IMG/VR virus record: IMGVR_UViG_3300028840_001620
Coordinates: 1 to 25,421 of that record
Source: a virus
DNA: 25,421 bases
Strand: one strand, 5' to 3'
Part shown: one piece after another, positions 17,594-25,421 of the stretch
Layout: each line of letters starts with the position of its first letter
Numbering within the stretch: position 1 is the stretch's first letter
Notes under the pieces: model-generated
What the model was told of the DNA's origin: nothing
What the model saw: only the letters and a program-made list of their open reading frames with translations
Database searches by the model: none
Position numbers and translations under genes: made by a program

Positions 17594-17626
17594 TTTTGTA
17601 AACATTTGGTAAAGATTTTGTAAACT
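17594..17626 (+). repeat. Putative integrase arm sites, P' arm cluster
   Basis: TTTTGTAAACA at 17594-17604 and TTTTGTAAACT at 17616-17626 lie 22 bp apart, with a weaker copy (ATTTGGTAAAG, 17604-17614) between them, giving spacing close to one helical turn. The cluster is about 40 bp right of the tRNA copy, like the P'1-P'3 group in lambda attP. The last copy overlaps the stop codon of the 90-aa gene. Confidence 0.5.
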
Positions 17627-18946: not shown

Positions 18947-19138
18947 TTAACCCCTTACCATTCTGTCGATCAAGGGATTATCAGGCCGATCCGGCGCACC
19001 CACATGCACAAAATACAGCCCGCCAATTTTCTCACCCGAGATAATACCCCGGTCAATCCAGCGTTTGATGGTGTTCGCGCATGGCGGTTTGCCCTCGAAG
19101 GCGAGGCGGCGGTATTCGTTGACAGTTATGCGGCGCAT
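18947..19138 (-). CDS. xis: Excisionase-like small HTH protein
   Basis: 63 residues, basic, with a winged-helix pattern: TVNEYRRL, then NTIKRWIDRGIISGEKIGGL (22-41), then a wing (YFVHV). This resembles lambda-type Xis and other MerR-fold excisionases that bend attachment-site DNA and turn integrase toward excision. It lies directly upstream of int in the same operon and overlaps the RecT-like gene by TAATG, the expected arrangement for co-expression after induction. Confidence 0.75.
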   Translation of the reverse strand: MRRITVNEYRRLAFEGKPPCANTIKRWIDRGIISGEKIGGLYFVHVGAPDRPDNPLIDRMVRG

Positions 19139-19857
19139 TAGTAATGATCAGGGTTTTCTCGCGGCTTATGCTCGGACTCAAGCACGACCTCGCCCAGCGG
19201 TTCGCCTGCCTGCCGCCTGCGCGTGGCCTCGGCCATCGTCTCAGACAGGGCGTTGCCTGGATCTTTAATAACGACGGGATCAACATCGATTATCTCGCCG
19301 CCCATCGAGGGCGCCGCCAGCATCAGCTCGGGTGCGTGTACGTCGATGAACCAGGCGGCTGCGCGGTACATGAGCATTTTCTCGGGTATCGTTTGCCATT
19401 TGCTGCCGCGTTTGCCGTACCACCCTTCTGCCTTTGCCATCGCGATATCGATCCACGGACCGGTCAGAAATTCCTCGGTTGAATTTTCAAGCACGACGGC
19501 CCTGCAGCCGCGTTCGTCTGAACCTTCCTTACCCTTCCACTCATAGCGCATCGGGCCATAGTCGGGCGAGGCATTAAAAGCAGATATCATGAACTTTGCA
19601 GAAAACGACGGCTTGCCCTCGATGATGTGCAAATTCTGCAGTACAGACATGGCCGAGACATTAAGCCGGTGTGCGATTTCGAGCGCAATCATGCAGTCGG
19701 CAATATCACCCTGAAATGCTTTTGGCACCAGGCGCGAATTGCACAGGGCTTTTGCCATGCGCTGCGCGAGCTCAAAGCTGTGTTCATTGTCGAATGGGGA
19801 GCCTGCCGGCAGGTTGCTTGCCTGTATCTCAGCAATTTCTGTTCTTTGGTCTGTCAT
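19138..19857 (-). CDS. RecT-like single-strand annealing protein (probable)
   Basis: 239 residues. The core at about 30-190 has LVPKAFQGDIADCMIALEIA, SVLQNLHIIEGKPSFSAKFM, PMRYEWKG and KWQTIPEKMLMYRAAAWFID. This text is typical of a phage family usually annotated as RecT-like or of unknown function next to nucleases. Such proteins anneal single strands during recombination and replication. The C terminus is charged and probably disordered. A VRR-NUC nuclease is encoded elsewhere in the genome and could be a partner, but no RecE-type exonuclease is adjacent. The gene is preceded by a Gly-rich repeat gene and followed by xis with a TAATG overlap. Confidence 0.6.
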   Translation of the reverse strand: MTDQRTEIAEIQASNLPAGSPFDNEHSFELAQRMAKALCNSRLVPKAFQGDIADCMIALEIAHRLNVSAMSVLQNLHIIEGKPSFSAKFMISAFNASPDYGPMRYEWKGKEGSDERGCRAVVLENSTEEFLTGPWIDIAMAKAEGWYGKRGSKWQTIPEKMLMYRAAAWFIDVHAPELMLAAPSMGGEIIDVDPVVIKDPGNALSETMAEATRRRQAGEPLGEVVLESEHKPRENPDHY

Positions 19858-19881: not shown

Positions 19882-20115
19882 TTAGCCGTCGCCGGAGCCG
19901 TCGCCGTCGCCGGAGCCGTCGCCGTCGCCGTAGCCCTCGCCGGAGCCGTCGCCGGAGCCGTAGCCGTCGCCGGAGCCGTAGCCGCAACCGTAGCCGGAGC
20001 CGGAGCCGTCGCCGGAGCCGTCGCCGTCGCCGTAGCCCTCGCCGGAGCCGTCGCCGGAGCCGGAGCCGTCGCCTCGACCGCGCCAGTTTTTAACGTGCAG
20101 ATCAACTTTGCTCAT
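19882..20115 (-). CDS. Gly-rich (G-x)n repeat protein
   Basis: Starting at the internal ATG 20115 the product has 77 residues: MSKVDLHVKNWRGRG, then more than 30 Gly-x pairs in which x is Asp, Ser, Tyr, Glu or Cys (DGSGSGDGSGEGYGDG style). I know similar tyrosine/serine/aspartate-glycine proteins next to DUF6948-like genes in other phages; function unknown. The ATG overlaps the previous gene by 14 nt. The same DNA is open in two other frames, because the hexamer repeat has no stops. One is an Ala/Thr/Pro frame on this strand with a TTG start at 20105 and an ATGA junction to the RecT-like gene. I prefer the Gly frame because of its ATG and known relatives. Confidence 0.55.
   Translation of the reverse strand: MSKVDLHVKNWRGRGDGSGSGDGSGEGYGDGDGSGDGSGSGYGCGYGSGDGYGSGDGSGEGYGDGDGSGDGDGSGDG
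19885..20077. repeat. Hexamer-based tandem repeat
   Basis: About 190 bp of imperfect six-base units on the minus strand, GGCGAC, GGCTCC and GGCTAC, with occasional GGCGAG or GGCTGC. Blocks of about 80 bp are themselves repeated: the string covering 19886-19960 recurs with few changes around 20009-20065. The third base of every second codon stays C. Such arrays vary in length by slippage. Confidence 0.9.
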
Positions 20116-20623: not shown

Positions 20624-20858
20624 TATGAAAGTTATTGCGCCGCACAATAAGATTGCCGCTGTGCGACCGCGATCCGTGCTTATTCACAGTGACCGGGTAC
20701 GGCTTACCCTGGGCGCTCTTTAAAAAAGCGATGTCCGTGCCGCAGTATTTACAGCGGCGCAGCTCGTGATCCTCGACGGTATCTTCGCCGGGCAGTAGCT
20801 TGTAACCCGGTTCGCCGGTGTAGGGCTTGCCCTGCTTTGGCGGCATAAACCCCATCAC
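20604..20858 (-). CDS. Small zinc-ribbon-like protein (84 aa)
   Basis: C36 and C39 in RRCKYCGTDIAFLKS, then a basic strand region and H78/C80 in NNFHNCRGKK, make a likely single zinc site. The form CxxCGTDIAFLKSAQGKPYPV resembles the small phage zinc-ribbon proteins common in early operons. The role is unknown; such proteins may bind nucleic acid or host factors. A Gly/Pro-rich N terminus (MPPKQGKPYTGEPGYKLL) precedes the ribbon. Both ends overlap neighbours by ATGA, so it is an integral operon member. Confidence 0.65.
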   Translation of the reverse strand: MMGFMPPKQGKPYTGEPGYKLLPGEDTVEDHELRRCKYCGTDIAFLKSAQGKPYPVTVNKHGSRSHSGNLIVRRNNFHNCRGKK

Positions 20859-21013
20859 TCGTAATCCTGCGCGTGTTCATCAGCGCGGGTGTGGTGCGCC
20901 AGCCTGATTTCTGCATCAGTGGAGTGCTTGAACAAAGAACGCCAGGCGCATCCGAGGAAAAAACCACAGATCATCGATAACCAGCAATAAATGAAAACGG
21001 TGAGCGCATCCAT
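20855..21013 (-). CDS. Small membrane protein (52 aa)
   Basis: The start is set at ATG 21013, which overlaps the upstream stop as TAATG; the frame is open further upstream but without need. Residues 4-24 (LTVFIYCWLSMICGFFLGCA) form one membrane span, followed by a basic junction and a hydrophilic tail rich in His and Asp. No family is recognised. The DNA for the tail (20888-20915) is a 28-bp exact repeat of 22669-22696 in the right operon. Confidence 0.6.
   Translation of the reverse strand: MDALTVFIYCWLSMICGFFLGCAWRSLFKHSTDAEIRLAHHTRADEHAQDYE
20888..20915 (+). repeat. 28-bp exact repeat, left copy
   Basis: GGTGTGGTGCGCC followed by AGCCTGATTTCTGCA, identical to 22669-22696 and in the same orientation. 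Because this copy is transcribed leftward and the other rightward, the two early mRNAs carry complementary 28-nt stretches. Confidence 0.9.
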
Positions 21014-21259: not shown

Positions 21260-21288
21260 AGTGTGAACTATAGTCCTGCGTATGTCAA
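21260..21288 (-). promoter_or_regulatory. Leftward early promoter PL
   Basis: On the minus strand TTGACA (21288-21283), a 17-bp spacer, then CACACT (21265-21260). The predicted start lies about 16 nt before the first gene. Operator copies abut the -35 on one side and the -10 on the other. The architecture mirrors PR. Confidence 0.65.
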
Positions 21289-21298
21289 GACTATAGTC
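21265..21298. promoter_or_regulatory. Left operators OL (two sites)
   Basis: Two copies of the palindromic core ACTATAGT, at 21267-21274 and 21290-21297, centres 23 bp apart. The second extends to the perfect ten-base palindrome GACTATAGTC. The same core occurs only around the repressor gene in this window, on both sides. Confidence 0.8.
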
Positions 21299-21321
21299 CG
21301 ATTCAAAGGAAAATAAACAAT

Positions 21322-21672
21322 TCAGTGATTATATTTTGATTCTTTTTCAGCTACGCGCAAAATGTAATCTTGGCCATCATCTGGCGTATCAATAAACATT
21401 TCGACTAGCTGGGCGAGTTGCTTTGAGCAATTCAAATCTTTAAGCAAGTTCGGCAGCAGCATCTGCCATCCATTAAGGCCAAAACCCCTGGCAATACTGT
21501 CTGCAACCTCAATAGTGGGCTTTCGCTCACCATCGAGAATAAAGCGAATCATTCGAGCCGATACCCCTGTCTCGCGCTCAAGCCTGGAAATTTTCATACC
21601 TGTTTTTGTTATTAACCCTTGCAGGTTGGTTCTGAATATTTCCGCAGGCTGCTGTTTCTTTGGCATAAACAT
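21322..21672 (-). CDS. CI-like repressor, short form without cleavage domain
   Basis: 116 residues. An HTH of the XRE/HTH_3 type lies at about 20-66: LITKTGMKISRLERETGVSA, then RMIRFILDGERKPTIEVADS, then IARGFGL. The C-terminal 45 residues are helical and acidic and have no S24/LexA peptidase domain, so RecA-stimulated self-cleavage is not expected. It lies between two operator groups and is transcribed leftward from PRM, exactly as lambda cI. It should repress PL and PR and maintain lysogeny. There are two in-frame ATGs (21672 and 21666) without a good ribosome site. Confidence 0.8.
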   Translation of the reverse strand: MFMPKKQQPAEIFRTNLQGLITKTGMKISRLERETGVSARMIRFILDGERKPTIEVADSIARGFGLNGWQMLLPNLLKDLNCSKQLAQLVEMFIDTPDDGQDYILRVAEKESKYNH

Positions 21673-21692
21673 AGTTTAAGCAGCGCTCACGG

Positions 21693-21743
21693 ACTATGGT
21701 TTTATTATGGGACTATAGTCTTGACACTACAAGGGACTATAGT
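21693..21743. promoter_or_regulatory. Right operators OR (three sites)
   Basis: Core ACTATAGT at 21712-21719 and 21736-21743, and a weaker ACTATGGT at 21693-21700. Centres are 19 and 24 bp apart. The two strong sites flank the PR -35 and reach the -10; the weak one lies at the predicted PRM start, like OR3 in lambda. Confidence 0.8.
21704..21732 (-). promoter_or_regulatory. Repressor maintenance promoter PRM (candidate)
   Basis: On the minus strand TTGTAG (21732-21727), a 17-bp spacer and CATAAT (21709-21704). It would start the repressor mRNA about 25 nt before its ATG. The middle operator fills the spacer and the weak operator lies just downstream, which would allow autoregulation. Confidence 0.5.
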
Positions 21744-21750
21744 TCATACT
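21721..21750 (+). promoter_or_regulatory. Rightward early promoter PR
   Basis: TTGACA (21721-21726), an 18-bp spacer that contains an operator, and CATACT (21745-21750). The predicted first transcribed base is at or within a base of the cro-like ATG at 21757, so the mRNA may be leaderless. Confidence 0.65.
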
Positions 21751-21756
21751 TCTGGC

Positions 21757-21969
21757 ATGAATGACCTGTATACAACAACGATGAGCATGTTGCAGGTAAC
21801 CAGCATTAACCCGAAACAGATTTCTCAAGATACTGGACTAGGTTACCGCTGGTTGCAGCGACTAAAAGATGGTGATTTCACAGACCCAGGCGTTAGGAAA
21901 ATACAAACGCTACACGACTATCTGCTGAAAACATCAAGCAACGACCGAAATGCGGCCCTAAACGGGTGA
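21757..21969 (+). CDS. Cro-like regulator
   Basis: The chosen start, ATG 21757, gives 70 residues; the frame is open further left but that part lies in the operators. Residues 19-58 (INPKQISQDTGLGYRWLQRL, then KDGDFTDPGVRKIQTLHDYL) form a compact HTH with a recognition helix around YRWLQRLK. Position, size and orientation are those of Cro: first gene from PR, divergent from the repressor. It should compete for the same ACTATAGT operators and favour lytic growth. It has no Shine-Dalgarno. A strong terminator follows after three bases. Confidence 0.7.
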   Translation: MNDLYTTTMSMLQVTSINPKQISQDTGLGYRWLQRLKDGDFTDPGVRKIQTLHDYLLKTSSNDRNAALNG

Positions 21970-21972
21970 TTC

Positions 21973-22010
21973 AACCGGTAAAAGTTACTCCTGCTTTTAC
22001 CGGTTTTTTT
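21973..22010 (+). terminator. Rho-independent terminator after cro
   Basis: AACCGGTAAAAG (21973-21984) pairs with CTTTTACCGGTT (21994-22005) across a nine-base loop, and T continues to 22010. A 12-bp stem plus T-run is a strong intrinsic terminator. It corresponds in place to lambda tR1, so right-operon genes need read-through or their own promoter. Confidence 0.9.
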
Positions 22011-22252
22011 ATAGGTGGAAAAAAAGAAAAACAAACAGCCCGACACGCTGAGAGTATGTGCACCCGATCACGGTGGCCTGTCATAAAAGTGATCTAAAAG
22101 TTCTCAATCAATAAAAGGGGTAACACCGCGAACTGCCCGATTGAGCCATAAGGAACCGAGAGGCGAAAGGGGACCGGAGTACTGATCTACCGATCAGGAA
22201 AGGGCGGTAAATACAACAAGTTAAAAAGTTATCCACAGGTTATACACAACGC
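22011..22252. other. Non-coding region, candidate replication origin or structured leader
   Basis: 242 bases without a credible gene. They contain four GATC sites (22066, 22091, 22184, 22192), the hairpin CTGATC-TACC-GATCAG (22182-22197), longer inverted pairs GATCAC/GTGATC (22066-22071 with 22089-22094) and CTCAATC/GATTGAG (22103-22109 with 22139-22145), an AT-rich stretch and two consensus DnaA boxes at the right edge. Clustered Dam sites plus DnaA boxes are typical of oriC-type origins. A structured 5' leader for the right operon is the alternative; both could apply. Confidence 0.45.
22229..22248 (+). promoter_or_regulatory. Tandem DnaA boxes
   Basis: TTATCCACA (22229-22237) and TTATACACA (22240-22248) both fit the TTATNCACA consensus exactly, in the same orientation with an 11-bp repeat distance, about one helical turn. 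They end four bases before the VRR-NUC ATG. TATACA within the second box lies six bases before that ATG and could serve as a -10 element. Confidence 0.8.
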
Positions 22253-22603
22253 ATGAAGCACCTCGAAGATAATGAACAAGCTGCCCTGTTCGATTGGGCC
22301 AGGAATATACCGGCATTGCGCTGGATGCACGCTATACCGAACGGTGGCAGGCGCAACATACGGGAAGCGGCACGGCTCAAACGCCAGGGCGTCAAGGCAG
22401 GTGTATCTGATATCTGCCTGCCTGCAGTCAAGCCACCCTATGCCGGCCTGTATATCGAAATGAAGCGGTCAAAGGGAAAAGCAACCCTGACAGACAAGCA
22501 AAGCGAGTTTATCAAGGCTATGGAGCTGCAGGGCTATAAATGCGCGGTGTGTCGCGGATTTGATGAGGCAAAAGCAACTATCGAGGAGTATTTAAAATTA
22601 TGA
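22253..22603 (+). CDS. VRR-NUC domain nuclease
   Basis: 116 residues, a complete small PD-(D/E)XK-like nuclease. Visible conserved positions are E8/Q9 (DNEQAALFDW), NGGRRN (30-35), G50-V-S-D53 (KAGVSDICLP), E69-M-K71 (GLYIEMKRSKG) and Q83 (TDKQSEFI), ending in GYKCAVCRGFDEA. VRR-NUC enzymes cut structured DNA such as Holliday junctions or flaps, and small stand-alone phage versions often accompany recombination genes. It may resolve replication or packaging intermediates together with the RecT-like protein. There is no Shine-Dalgarno; DnaA boxes lie directly upstream. Its TGA overlaps the next ATG. Confidence 0.85.
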   Translation: MKHLEDNEQAALFDWARNIPALRWMHAIPNGGRRNIREAARLKRQGVKAGVSDICLPAVKPPYAGLYIEMKRSKGKATLTDKQSEFIKAMELQGYKCAVCRGFDEAKATIEEYLKL

Positions 22604-22764
22604 GCGTCAGAGAAACAAAGGGACAGATACGCTCGCAGACTTCCCAGCGCGAATATGATCGTAAGCATGGTGTGGTGCGCCAGCCTGATTTCTGCAAGGG
22701 AAGCCGCGACCGAGCAAAAGAAAAACAAATTATTGCGCGCCTGGCTTGCGCCGAGGAGGGTTAA
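22600..22764 (+). CDS. Unassigned 54-aa basic protein
   Basis: Starts in an ATGA overlap with the nuclease gene and reads MSVRETKGQIRSQTSQREYD, then a segment encoded by the 28-bp repeat (GVVRQPDFC), then KGSRDRAKEKQIIARLACAE. It is strongly basic and probably helical. No family is recognised. The overlap, and the GGAGGG ribosome site at its 3' end for the next gene, support it as a real gene. Its mRNA contains a 28-nt segment complementary to the leftward early mRNA. Confidence 0.55.
   Translation: MSVRETKGQIRSQTSQREYDRKHGVVRQPDFCKGSRDRAKEKQIIARLACAEEG
22669..22696 (+). repeat. 28-bp exact repeat, right copy
   Basis: Identical to 20888-20915; flanking bases differ. It lies inside the 54-aa gene and is transcribed rightward. 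Confidence 0.9.
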
Positions 22765-22767
22765 TTC

Positions 22768-23103
22768 ATGACTGAATGGCCACACTTGAGAAGATCCGGC
22801 GAGTGGTATGACAGCGCCGGCACTCCATTCGACCCTGATAAACATTTCAGGAAAAAAGGCGAGAGCAAGCCGACCGTCAACAAAGACGGCACATTCAGGA
22901 AAAAACCAAAACAGAAAATAAAAAGCGACCCACTGCAGGAAAATCAACTGCTCGGCACATTCAAAAACCATGTTCATCAGGCAGGCACAGAGGCGCGCCT
23001 GAATGAATTAAGCACGCTCGCAGGAATGATGCACTTTACAGGCGATGAGGAATCGATGGCGCAAGAGTGGATCAGGACCAGGCGCGGGGAGCTGAAAGCA
23101 TGA
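22768..23103 (+). CDS. Unassigned 111-aa phage protein
   Basis: Good ribosome site (GAGGAGGG). The first half is polar with a repeated short motif, FRKKGESKP and FRKKPKQK, around TVNKDGT; the second half is helical (TEARLNELSTLAGMMHFTGD). A similar WPHLRRSGEWYDSAGTPFDP-type opening occurs in small phage proteins I cannot place. The stop overlaps the ATG of the gpZ-like gene (ATGA), suggesting co-translation with it. Confidence 0.5.
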   Translation: MTEWPHLRRSGEWYDSAGTPFDPDKHFRKKGESKPTVNKDGTFRKKPKQKIKSDPLQENQLLGTFKNHVHQAGTEARLNELSTLAGMMHFTGDEESMAQEWIRTRRGELKA

Positions 23104-23666
23104 CGGTATCTGTAAGGGTCGACACCAGCGAGCTTGAAAAGGCTTTCAAGCAAATCAACCGCAAGATGCCAGCGGTCACAGCCAAGGCGATTAATGAAAC
23201 AGCCCGTTTCGCCAAGTCCAATAGTGAAAAGGAGGTGGCGAAGGCCCTGCGCCTAAAGCCGCTCAAGCTGGTCACAAAACGATTCACCATCGAGGGCGAG
23301 GTAAAAGAGGACCGCACCAAGCTGACAGAAGCAAATCGCTCACGGTTGCGCTCAACGCTGTCGGTATATGTGCGCGGGATTCCTGTCGGGCAGATCGCCG
23401 GCAAGGCGACGAAAAGCCAACGCAAGCGCCCCGGTGTAAAAGCCAAGGCCGGGCGTTTTTACAAAGGCGCATTCTATAACCCGCGCGATAATCGCATGGT
23501 GTTCAAGCGGCGCAAAAGCGGACAGCTGATGATGCCGAAAGTCGGTGTACGGAAACTTTTGACTGACAAGTTCGGCACCTATGTTTCGGGGCGGCCTGGC
23601 CTGGTTGAGTTTCGCAAGCGGTGGGAACGTCTGGCAAGATTTGAACTGTCTAAGATAAGCATCTGA
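23100..23666 (+). CDS. Minor tail protein Z homologue (GPZ family)
   Basis: The start is set at ATG 23100, overlapping the previous TGA. 188 residues: VSVRVDTSELEKAFKQINRK, then MPAVTAKAINETARFAKSNS and a very basic stretch (PLKLVTKRF, RSRLRSTLSVYVRGIP, KATKSQRKRPGVKAKAGRFY). This is the pattern of Prophage_tail_Z, lambda gpZ (192 aa), needed to finish the tail end that meets the head. In lambda the gene lies between FII and U. Here it is displaced to the right end, which after circularisation is just upstream of terminase. It overlaps the methyltransferase start (TGATG). Confidence 0.75.
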   Translation: MTVSVRVDTSELEKAFKQINRKMPAVTAKAINETARFAKSNSEKEVAKALRLKPLKLVTKRFTIEGEVKEDRTKLTEANRSRLRSTLSVYVRGIPVGQIAGKATKSQRKRPGVKAKAGRFYKGAFYNPRDNRMVFKRRKSGQLMMPKVGVRKLLTDKFGTYVSGRPGLVEFRKRWERLARFELSKISI

Positions 23667-24256
23667 TGTGGGCTGACCAGGCATTTTATAAACTACTGTC
23701 GGATTACGACTTTGACACTGTGCTCGATGTCGGCTCGGGCACGGGCGAGCACTCAAAGATGTTTCGCGATCATGGAAAGCATGTAACTACAATTGATTTA
23801 ACGCAGCCTGCTGATATCACTGGGGACTTTTTAAGCTGTCCGCCCGAGCTTGTCAGCGAATCGCCCTATGCTTGCATCTGGTCCAGTCATGTACTCGAAC
23901 ACCAGACAAACGTCGGCGCATTTTTAGAGCGCTGTTTTTACCTGCTCGATGATGACGGCATCCTGGCTATAACCGTGCCACCACTAAAGCATGAGATTGT
24001 CGGCGGCCATGTTTCGTTGTGGAACGCCGGCCTGCTGCTTTACAACCTGGTGCTGGCCGGGTTCGATTGTTCACAGGCCGCTGTTAAAACATACGGCTAT
24101 AACATATCCGTGATCGTCAGAAAGAAACCCGCCAAGATGCCGCGCCTTTGCATGGATAGTGGCGACATCAATGCGCTAAAGCGATTTTTTCCCATGGTCG
24201 TCGATGAGGGATTCATCGGCCAGATCGATCAAATTAACTGGAACAAAACCGAATGA
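23666..24256 (+). CDS. SAM-dependent methyltransferase (class I)
   Basis: 196 residues with a Rossmann-type methyltransferase core: motif I VLDVGSGTGEHS (19-30), the acidic end of strand 2 (TTIDLTQPADITGDF), IWSSHVLEHQ (71-80) in the region of motif IV, and a motif-VI-like LDDDGILAITVPP. It resembles the Methyltransf_11/23 group that acts on small molecules or glycans more than DNA methylases: no NPPY or DPPY motif is present. It is coupled to gpZ by TGATG and to the next gene by overlap (ATGA at 24253). The substrate is unknown. Confidence 0.75.
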   Translation: MWADQAFYKLLSDYDFDTVLDVGSGTGEHSKMFRDHGKHVTTIDLTQPADITGDFLSCPPELVSESPYACIWSSHVLEHQTNVGAFLERCFYLLDDDGILAITVPPLKHEIVGGHVSLWNAGLLLYNLVLAGFDCSQAAVKTYGYNISVIVRKKPAKMPRLCMDSGDINALKRFFPMVVDEGFIGQIDQINWNKTE

Positions 24257-24975
24257 CAGACGAACAAGCAACACCAGACGAAAAACCAGAAGCACCTAAA
24301 AGCATACACATAATATGCAGCGGTGCCACAACAAAGGACTACCTGGCCGCCAATATGGGCTATGAGCGGGTGATACCTAAAGCGGATCAGGTGTGGTCAT
24401 TGAATAAATCGCTGCGTTCGTTTCGTGCAGATATGGGATTCGTGCTCGATGATTGGGTGGGAGAGTACGCCAAAAGCCGGGCGTATATGACGGACATTGT
24501 GCGCCTTACCCATGAGATACCTATTGTCACCACTGTGGTAGACCTGGAAACACAGAAGCTGATCGAGGGCATGGGCGGCAATCCTGACAACGTCATTGCC
24601 TATCCGGTTAAGGAGATACGCGACGCCCTGGGCGAGCATTTCTATAATAACTGCAGGGCCACTATTCCAGAGACACACACAAAAGAGCAGTTCATCAAAC
24701 AGAAGGGCAATTCAATGCTGTATATGAAAAACAGTGTGCCGATGATACTGGCCTATGCCTGGTGGCTGGGGGTCCGGTCTATCTACCTGTTTGGTGCCGA
24801 CTACTCGCACCCTATGAGTAACAGCAGAGAAGCCGACCAGCCTAATGCAGAATATTGGTGTGGTTTTCTTGAGGCATGCGGCGTGTCGCTATTCCTGCCT
24901 AATGACACCACCCTAAAGAGCGCGCGCATGGGTATGGATATCTATGGATATGGTGCAAGACAACCGATACTGTGA
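24253..24975 (+). CDS. MptE/DUF115-like Rossmann protein
   Basis: 240 residues. After a disordered acidic start (to about 15) comes IHIICSGATTKDYL (18-31), a glycine-poor Rossmann opening; then DQVWSLNKSLRSFRADMGFV and VLDDWV, and late in the protein YLFGADYSHPMSNSREADQP. The GADYSHP segment and the DxVW..N pattern recall phage proteins of the MptE-like/DUF115 group, related to pterin pyrophosphokinases and glycosyltransferase-like enzymes. The activity is unknown. It is coupled to the methyltransferase upstream and by GTGA to the HNH gene downstream, so the pair may act on the same substrate. Confidence 0.55.
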   Translation: MTDEQATPDEKPEAPKSIHIICSGATTKDYLAANMGYERVIPKADQVWSLNKSLRSFRADMGFVLDDWVGEYAKSRAYMTDIVRLTHEIPIVTTVVDLETQKLIEGMGGNPDNVIAYPVKEIRDALGEHFYNNCRATIPETHTKEQFIKQKGNSMLYMKNSVPMILAYAWWLGVRSIYLFGADYSHPMSNSREADQPNAEYWCGFLEACGVSLFLPNDTTLKSARMGMDIYGYGARQPIL

Positions 24976-25388: not shown

Positions 25389-25418
25389 CCCGAAGGCGTG
25401 CGCCTTGCGGGTCGGAGG
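25386..25418. repeat. Hyphenated inverted repeat at the right cos end
   Basis: CCCG-AAGGCG (25389-25398), a TG centre, then CGCCTT-G-CGGG (25401-25411) gives a ten-pair stem with one bulged G. Outer CCT/AGG pairs extend it into the overhang. It fills the interval between the cosQ-like element and the nick. Confidence 0.65.
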
Positions 25419-25421
25419 GCG
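25410..25421. other. cos: Right cohesive end (cos, 12-nt overhang copy)
   Basis: The last 12 bases equal bases 1-12. Joined ends would read cosQ-like element, inverted repeat, the 12-nt overhang once, then CGCGGTTTTCGC and the terminase genes. Confidence 0.85.

Follow-up and report, generated by a model that had tools for sequence, protein, structure and literature searches.

Genome ends, gene content and immunity region

The window, by which we mean the whole stretch of 25,421 nucleotides analysed here, is one single virus record. The same 12-mer, GGTCGGAGGGCG, stands at its left end (1–12) and at its right end (25410–25421), resembling a cos-type cohesive end, and a relative (L349) contains TGCGGGTCGGAGGGCGCGC, the junction expected from joining the two ends; the 12-mer was thus found at both ends and joined in a relative, as for a lambda-type cos phage. 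A terminase relative (L351) starts at the base homologous to the first base of the window (GGACGGAGGGCG). Taken together with the lambda-type TerL, the shared 12-mer and the junction point to a filled-in 12-nt cohesive end, which indicates that the genome is complete, cos-ended and about 25.4 kb long. Contigs of several relatives begin at the base homologous to the left end of the window. The first 12.4 kb of a second contig, from another assembly, are 100% identical to the window; this contig starts one base earlier and ends near a Gly/Asp/Ser-rich array upstream of recT. Deposited phages gave no match to the window at the DNA level.

The gene products recognised are structural proteins, a holin, an integrase, an excisionase, RecT-like, CI-like, Cro-like, VRR-NUC and gpZ-like proteins, a methyltransferase and an HNH protein. 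The immunity region begins with a CI-like repressor gene (21322–21672, minus strand; profile match to HTH_3), followed by a predicted pR-like promoter (21721–21750, plus strand; TTGACA, 18 bp, CATACT) amid ACTATAGT operator-like repeats, a Cro-like repressor gene (21757–21969, plus strand; phrog_9425, E 2e-8), an intrinsic terminator with 12-nt perfect arms and a T run (21973–22012, plus strand), an intergenic gap, and the gene for a VRR-NUC nuclease (22253–22603, plus strand; PF08774, E 3e-8; phrog_824, E 8e-46). Lambda has this same order until cII-O-P and ori are reached, and the gap lies downstream of cro and its terminator, as a lambda-type O/P origin does. Repeats centred on ACTATAGT flank the CI gene (21260–21300 and 21690–21745) and resemble the left and right operators of lambda. 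No relatives of Cro appeared in a protein scan of viral contigs. A 43-aa ORF with a GTG start (21966–22097, plus strand) overlaps the cro stop codon and crosses the terminator; it has no family match. There is also a perfect 28-bp direct repeat (20888–20915 and 22669–22696; chance about 4e-9 by length), the copies of which lie in genes on opposite strands and flank the segment from CI through cro and the gap to VRR-NUC. It might mark an edge at which the immunity/origin module recombines.

That the phage has no visible replication genes, as a sequence-only reading of this DNA had stated, was borne out by profile searches. PHROGs, Pfam and NCBIfam profiles were run on the non-structural proteins and PHROGs profiles on nearly all other ORFs, and the six frames of the genome were searched for four families (DnaB_C, AAA_25, DNA_pol_A and HTH_36). 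Across nearly all ORFs there was no profile match to an initiator, an O-like gene, a helicase, a helicase loader, a primase or a polymerase, and none of the four families matched in any of the six frames. Instead of these, the phage has only the RecT-like and VRR-NUC genes. The O-like initiator gene (HTH_36) of a lambda-type system was thus absent from the six-frame, PHROGs and Pfam searches, and we found no Rep or primase-helicase gene with iterons of the kind that marks an iteron plasmid or phage-plasmid.

Three small products had been singled out by the sequence-only reading for profile searches as possible cryptic initiators, and none of them gave a match: those of a 54-aa ORF next to the nuclease gene (22600–22764, plus strand), of a 111-aa ORF (22768–23103, plus strand), and of a 90-aa ORF at 17625. 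The 111-aa protein is predicted to have a C-terminal three-helix domain (single-sequence model, pLDDT 70). The model has no PDB match, and the domain shows a weak, non-significant likeness to the C-terminal domains of UvsW.1 and ERF (best E 0.04), which may be taken as a lead towards recombination. The next gene encodes a gpZ-like tail completion protein (23112–23666, plus strand), which marks the syntenic slot in relatives. The RecT-like ssDNA annealing protein is encoded at 19138–19857 (minus strand; phrog_561, E 9e-57), and a short, repetitive Gly/Asp/Ser-rich ORF lies just upstream of its gene (19882–20115, minus strand). We considered the GC-rich 12/30-bp array at 19883–20073 as an iteron origin and set it aside, the open Gly/Asp/Ser-rich frame making a coding function the simpler reading.

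Tandem DnaA boxes and other features of the gap

Two exact DnaA boxes lie on the plus strand shortly before the VRR-NUC gene, box 1 (TTATCCACA) at 22229–22237 and box 2 (TTATACACA) at 22240–22248. Both are perfect and on the same strand, 11 bp apart from start to start with a GG linker, and the earlier claim of two consensus boxes one helical turn apart in the gap therefore stands. A third exact match in the window, TTATTCACA, is found within a gene (20680–20688). In 1,500 dinucleotide-preserving shuffles of the window, exact matches to TTATNCACA occur at a mean of 0.77 per genome. None of the 1,500 shuffles held a same-strand pair of TTATNCACA 12 bp or less apart, and the analytic expectation for the tandem pair is 3.5e-5. 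The pair is far beyond chance. The gap holds one more site with up to two mismatches to the DnaA box, a frequency not above that of the rest of the genome, and there is no oriC-like cluster of strong and weak boxes in the gap, the two strong boxes standing alone.

The sequence-only reading had also placed weight on Dam sites and inverted repeats, which these could not bear. Four GATC sites lie in the 242-bp gap (22066, 22091, 22184 and 22192), and they are weak evidence because 2.5% of all 242-bp stretches in the genome hold as many. The inverted repeats within the gap are short, and the sole strong one (21973–22005) is the terminator before it. The GC skew is uninformative on the origin, since it tracks the direction and strand of the genes. 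Iterons were not found in the gap, and its AT content is a modest 54%. Its least stable 30-bp stretch in a stability scan (22083–22112) is a candidate unwinding element, with an instability in the top 0.26% of the 30-bp windows of the genome; the signal fades in larger windows (1.5% for 50 bp, an unremarkable 7.7% for 100 bp). We rejected the reading of the gap as a structured RNA; no Rfam family covers it (the only match is a sub-threshold LhrC across the terminator, E 0.06), and its RNA fold is no better than that of shuffles (z = +0.76). Likewise rejected was a cryptic O-like remnant, as tblastn found nothing in the gap that resembles an O-like or a primase protein.

The boxes could serve transcription rather than replication. 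DnaA bound upstream of VRR-NUC would then repress or activate the right operon, or couple it to host growth, and replication would either begin at another site or depend on recombination or on priming by transcription. Because a terminator separates cro from the right operon, a promoter or antitermination is needed for that operon, and the hexamer TATACA (22241–22246) shares bases with box 2, 6 bp upstream of the VRR-NUC start codon. Lambda offers a parallel: its pR is stimulated by DnaA, which also binds two DnaA-box-like sites of the replication region, downstream of pO (PMC3985674). However, no −35 element stands at a usable distance from TATACA and the promoter scan makes no call there, so that the DnaA-controlled promoter proposed earlier was not upheld; moreover, the tandem boxes of relatives are found in surroundings typical of origins, among iterons and initiator genes, as described below. 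We therefore regard this explanation, with its alternative routes of replication, as unlikely. Upstream of both cro (21745–21759) and VRR-NUC (22241–22255) there is a −10-like hexamer with its end 6 bp from the start codon, and no clear Shine-Dalgarno sequence is seen; it is possible that both mRNAs are leaderless.

The corresponding slot in related phages

Two relatives with a 59% identical TerL (G401 and G402) encode a 628-aa AAA_25 primase-helicase-like protein a few small genes before gpZ, and their contigs (23.8 and 25.5 kb) hold no exact DnaA boxes. In a third (G406; TerL 47% identical), an HTH_36 O-like gene holds iteron-like repeats together with TTATCCACAGGTTGTCCACA, which is the tandem pair of the window except that its second box has one mismatch, on the strand opposite to the O-like gene. 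Another exact DnaA box is found 147 bp beyond TTATCCACAGGTTGTCCACA, and the product of the gene after the O-like gene resembles, by eye, that of 24253–24975 in the window (a GADY motif, unscored). These comparisons support the view that the gap occupies the slot where terminase relatives keep an origin or an initiator/primase gene. Comparable tandem pairs were absent (0 in 1.82 Mb) from other phage loci drawn by RecT and VRR-NUC. A second initiator-less genome that keeps the boxes was not found; apart from the 100% identical contig from the other assembly, nothing matched the window closely.

The nuclease gene leads to similar neighbourhoods. In L021 (VRR-NUC 59% identical) it comes after an O-like HTH_36 gene, which has one DnaA box and three 21-bp iterons. 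L234 (55%) has it on the downstream side of a gene with repeats, the match of which to HTH_36 falls just short of the Pfam cut-off. In a separate clade (L114, L115, L190 and L228, with L158) the order is a PriCT_2/AAA_25 protein, iterons, boxes, a small ORF and VRR-NUC, the boxes between iterons and small ORF being one single and one tandem DnaA box. A general linkage of VRR-NUC to DnaA boxes was rejected: of 80 other VRR-NUC loci, just 1 has a box in the 800 bp before the gene, which is below background, so VRR-NUC as such is no predictor of boxes.

TTATNCACA-NN-TTATNCACA occurs in at least 120 viral contigs, as against 26 for the reversed pattern in a full scan, an enrichment of at least 4.6-fold over this control. 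Among the matches listed, the tandem pairs favour C at the N, have GG, AG or CT as their preferred linkers and mostly lie outside ORFs; the identifiable neighbours of the listed matches recurrently belong to primase/helicase, VRR-NUC, TerL and ParB families. Tandem boxes spaced by 11 bp recur in IMG/VR contigs L113–L232, often as several pairs (L123, L130, L184). When the other long contigs with a tandem pair (28 records) were searched with four replication families, many had no match, and these contigs may be fragments.

An initiator or primase-helicase is encoded by every box-bearing relative (G406, L021 and the L114 clade), and the window may encode an initiator too, in a form that escapes recognition. 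The boxes would in that case be part of an origin at which, for example, one of the small products without any profile match (111-aa, 54-aa or 90-aa) starts replication, with DnaA auxiliary, as at O-gene and iteron origins. However, the gap offers such a protein no iterons to bind, lengths of 54 to 111 aa are small for an initiator, and the 111-aa protein has no relative in deposited phages even at E ≤ 1, its predicted domain being weakly like recombination proteins and unlike initiators. An overlooked initiator thus seems rather improbable to us.

It is far less probable still that the pair is a functionless relic of an ancestral O-type origin, left after gene loss, or a chance match. The relatives do have O-like genes with boxes where the window lacks such a gene, and nothing that resembles an O-like or a primase protein is left in the gap. 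Against this, both boxes are perfect, whereas neutral decay would have mutated them; the identical phage is present in two assemblies, and its terminal structure, typical of packaged DNA, implies that it replicates. In the best reading, the pair is instead an origin element for host DnaA, in a phage lineage that has swapped origin modules and whose present member lacks the initiator.

A candidate origin, possibly served by host DnaA

A complete temperate phage with no recognisable initiation gene may borrow host DnaA directly. On the sequence evidence, the tandem pair is most likely an origin element that would recruit host DnaA and DnaB at the position of the lambda ori, the O-type initiator being absent. 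Of the proposal that the phage replicates through host DnaA at this site, the parts that held are the boxes beyond chance, the complete genome without initiation genes, the slot and the similar pair in G406, while the promoter, the Dam sites and the inverted repeats fell away as support.

Each known system shares something with the gap and differs from it. The lambda and lambdoid ori, within gene O, has the same place after cro and its terminator in a cos phage with a cI/cro switch, and two DnaA-box-like sites, but the window lacks O, P and iterons and has its boxes between genes, as a perfect tandem pair spaced by 11 bp. The boxes of G406 and L021 occupy the phage replication slot, with the same GG linker in G406, but they are part of HTH_36 O-like genes that also contain iterons, and the window has neither such a gene nor iterons. 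Bacterial oriC has high-affinity TTATNCACA boxes with GATC sites close by (a weak point of likeness), whereas the window has just two, with neither an array of weaker sites nor demonstrated 13-mer repeats. Iteron plasmid origins such as P1 oriR and F ori2 combine perfect DnaA boxes with an AT-rich stretch nearby, and host DnaA participates there (PMC5043065), but no Rep gene or iterons were found in the window. DnaA alone is able to open the P1 and F plasmid origins; one DnaA box is enough at the P1 origin when its initiator is present, and opening by DnaA is greatly helped there by the plasmid initiator RepA (PMC5043065).

After derepression, transcription from the cro promoter would run across the gap, and host DnaA would bind to both boxes, adjacent and in helical phase. 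It could then open an AT-rich stretch, aided by transcription or supercoiling, and recruit host DnaB together with the DnaB loader, after which the genome would be copied by host enzymes. RecT and VRR-NUC may help to make the concatemers that cos packaging needs. Whether the gap (21970–22252) is a replication origin or its core, where host DnaA brings in host DnaB, is in our judgement an evenly balanced question; two boxes without iterons make a sparse origin. The stronger claim, that a tailed temperate dsDNA phage without its own initiator, helicase loader and helicase would start replication at an intergenic origin of two boxes with nothing but host DnaA and need no other phage protein, is put forward tentatively and must be called doubtful. 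The relatives with O-like origin boxes retain an initiator. The open-access literature searched reports no phage replicating by DnaA only.

Phages usually bring their own initiator, so as to escape the once-per-cycle control that the host puts on DnaA. Coliphage 186 is a tailed phage reported to need host DnaA and DnaC, but, unlike the phage of the window, it is a P2-type phage with its own A-type initiator. If the origin reading is true, reliance on host DnaA would tie the phage burst to the host cell cycle, and the phage would be a minimal natural DnaA-dependent replicon. It would also illustrate the loss of the initiator from O-type origins. The recurrent 11-bp-spaced DnaA pair in viral contigs is a simple marker with which more can be sought.
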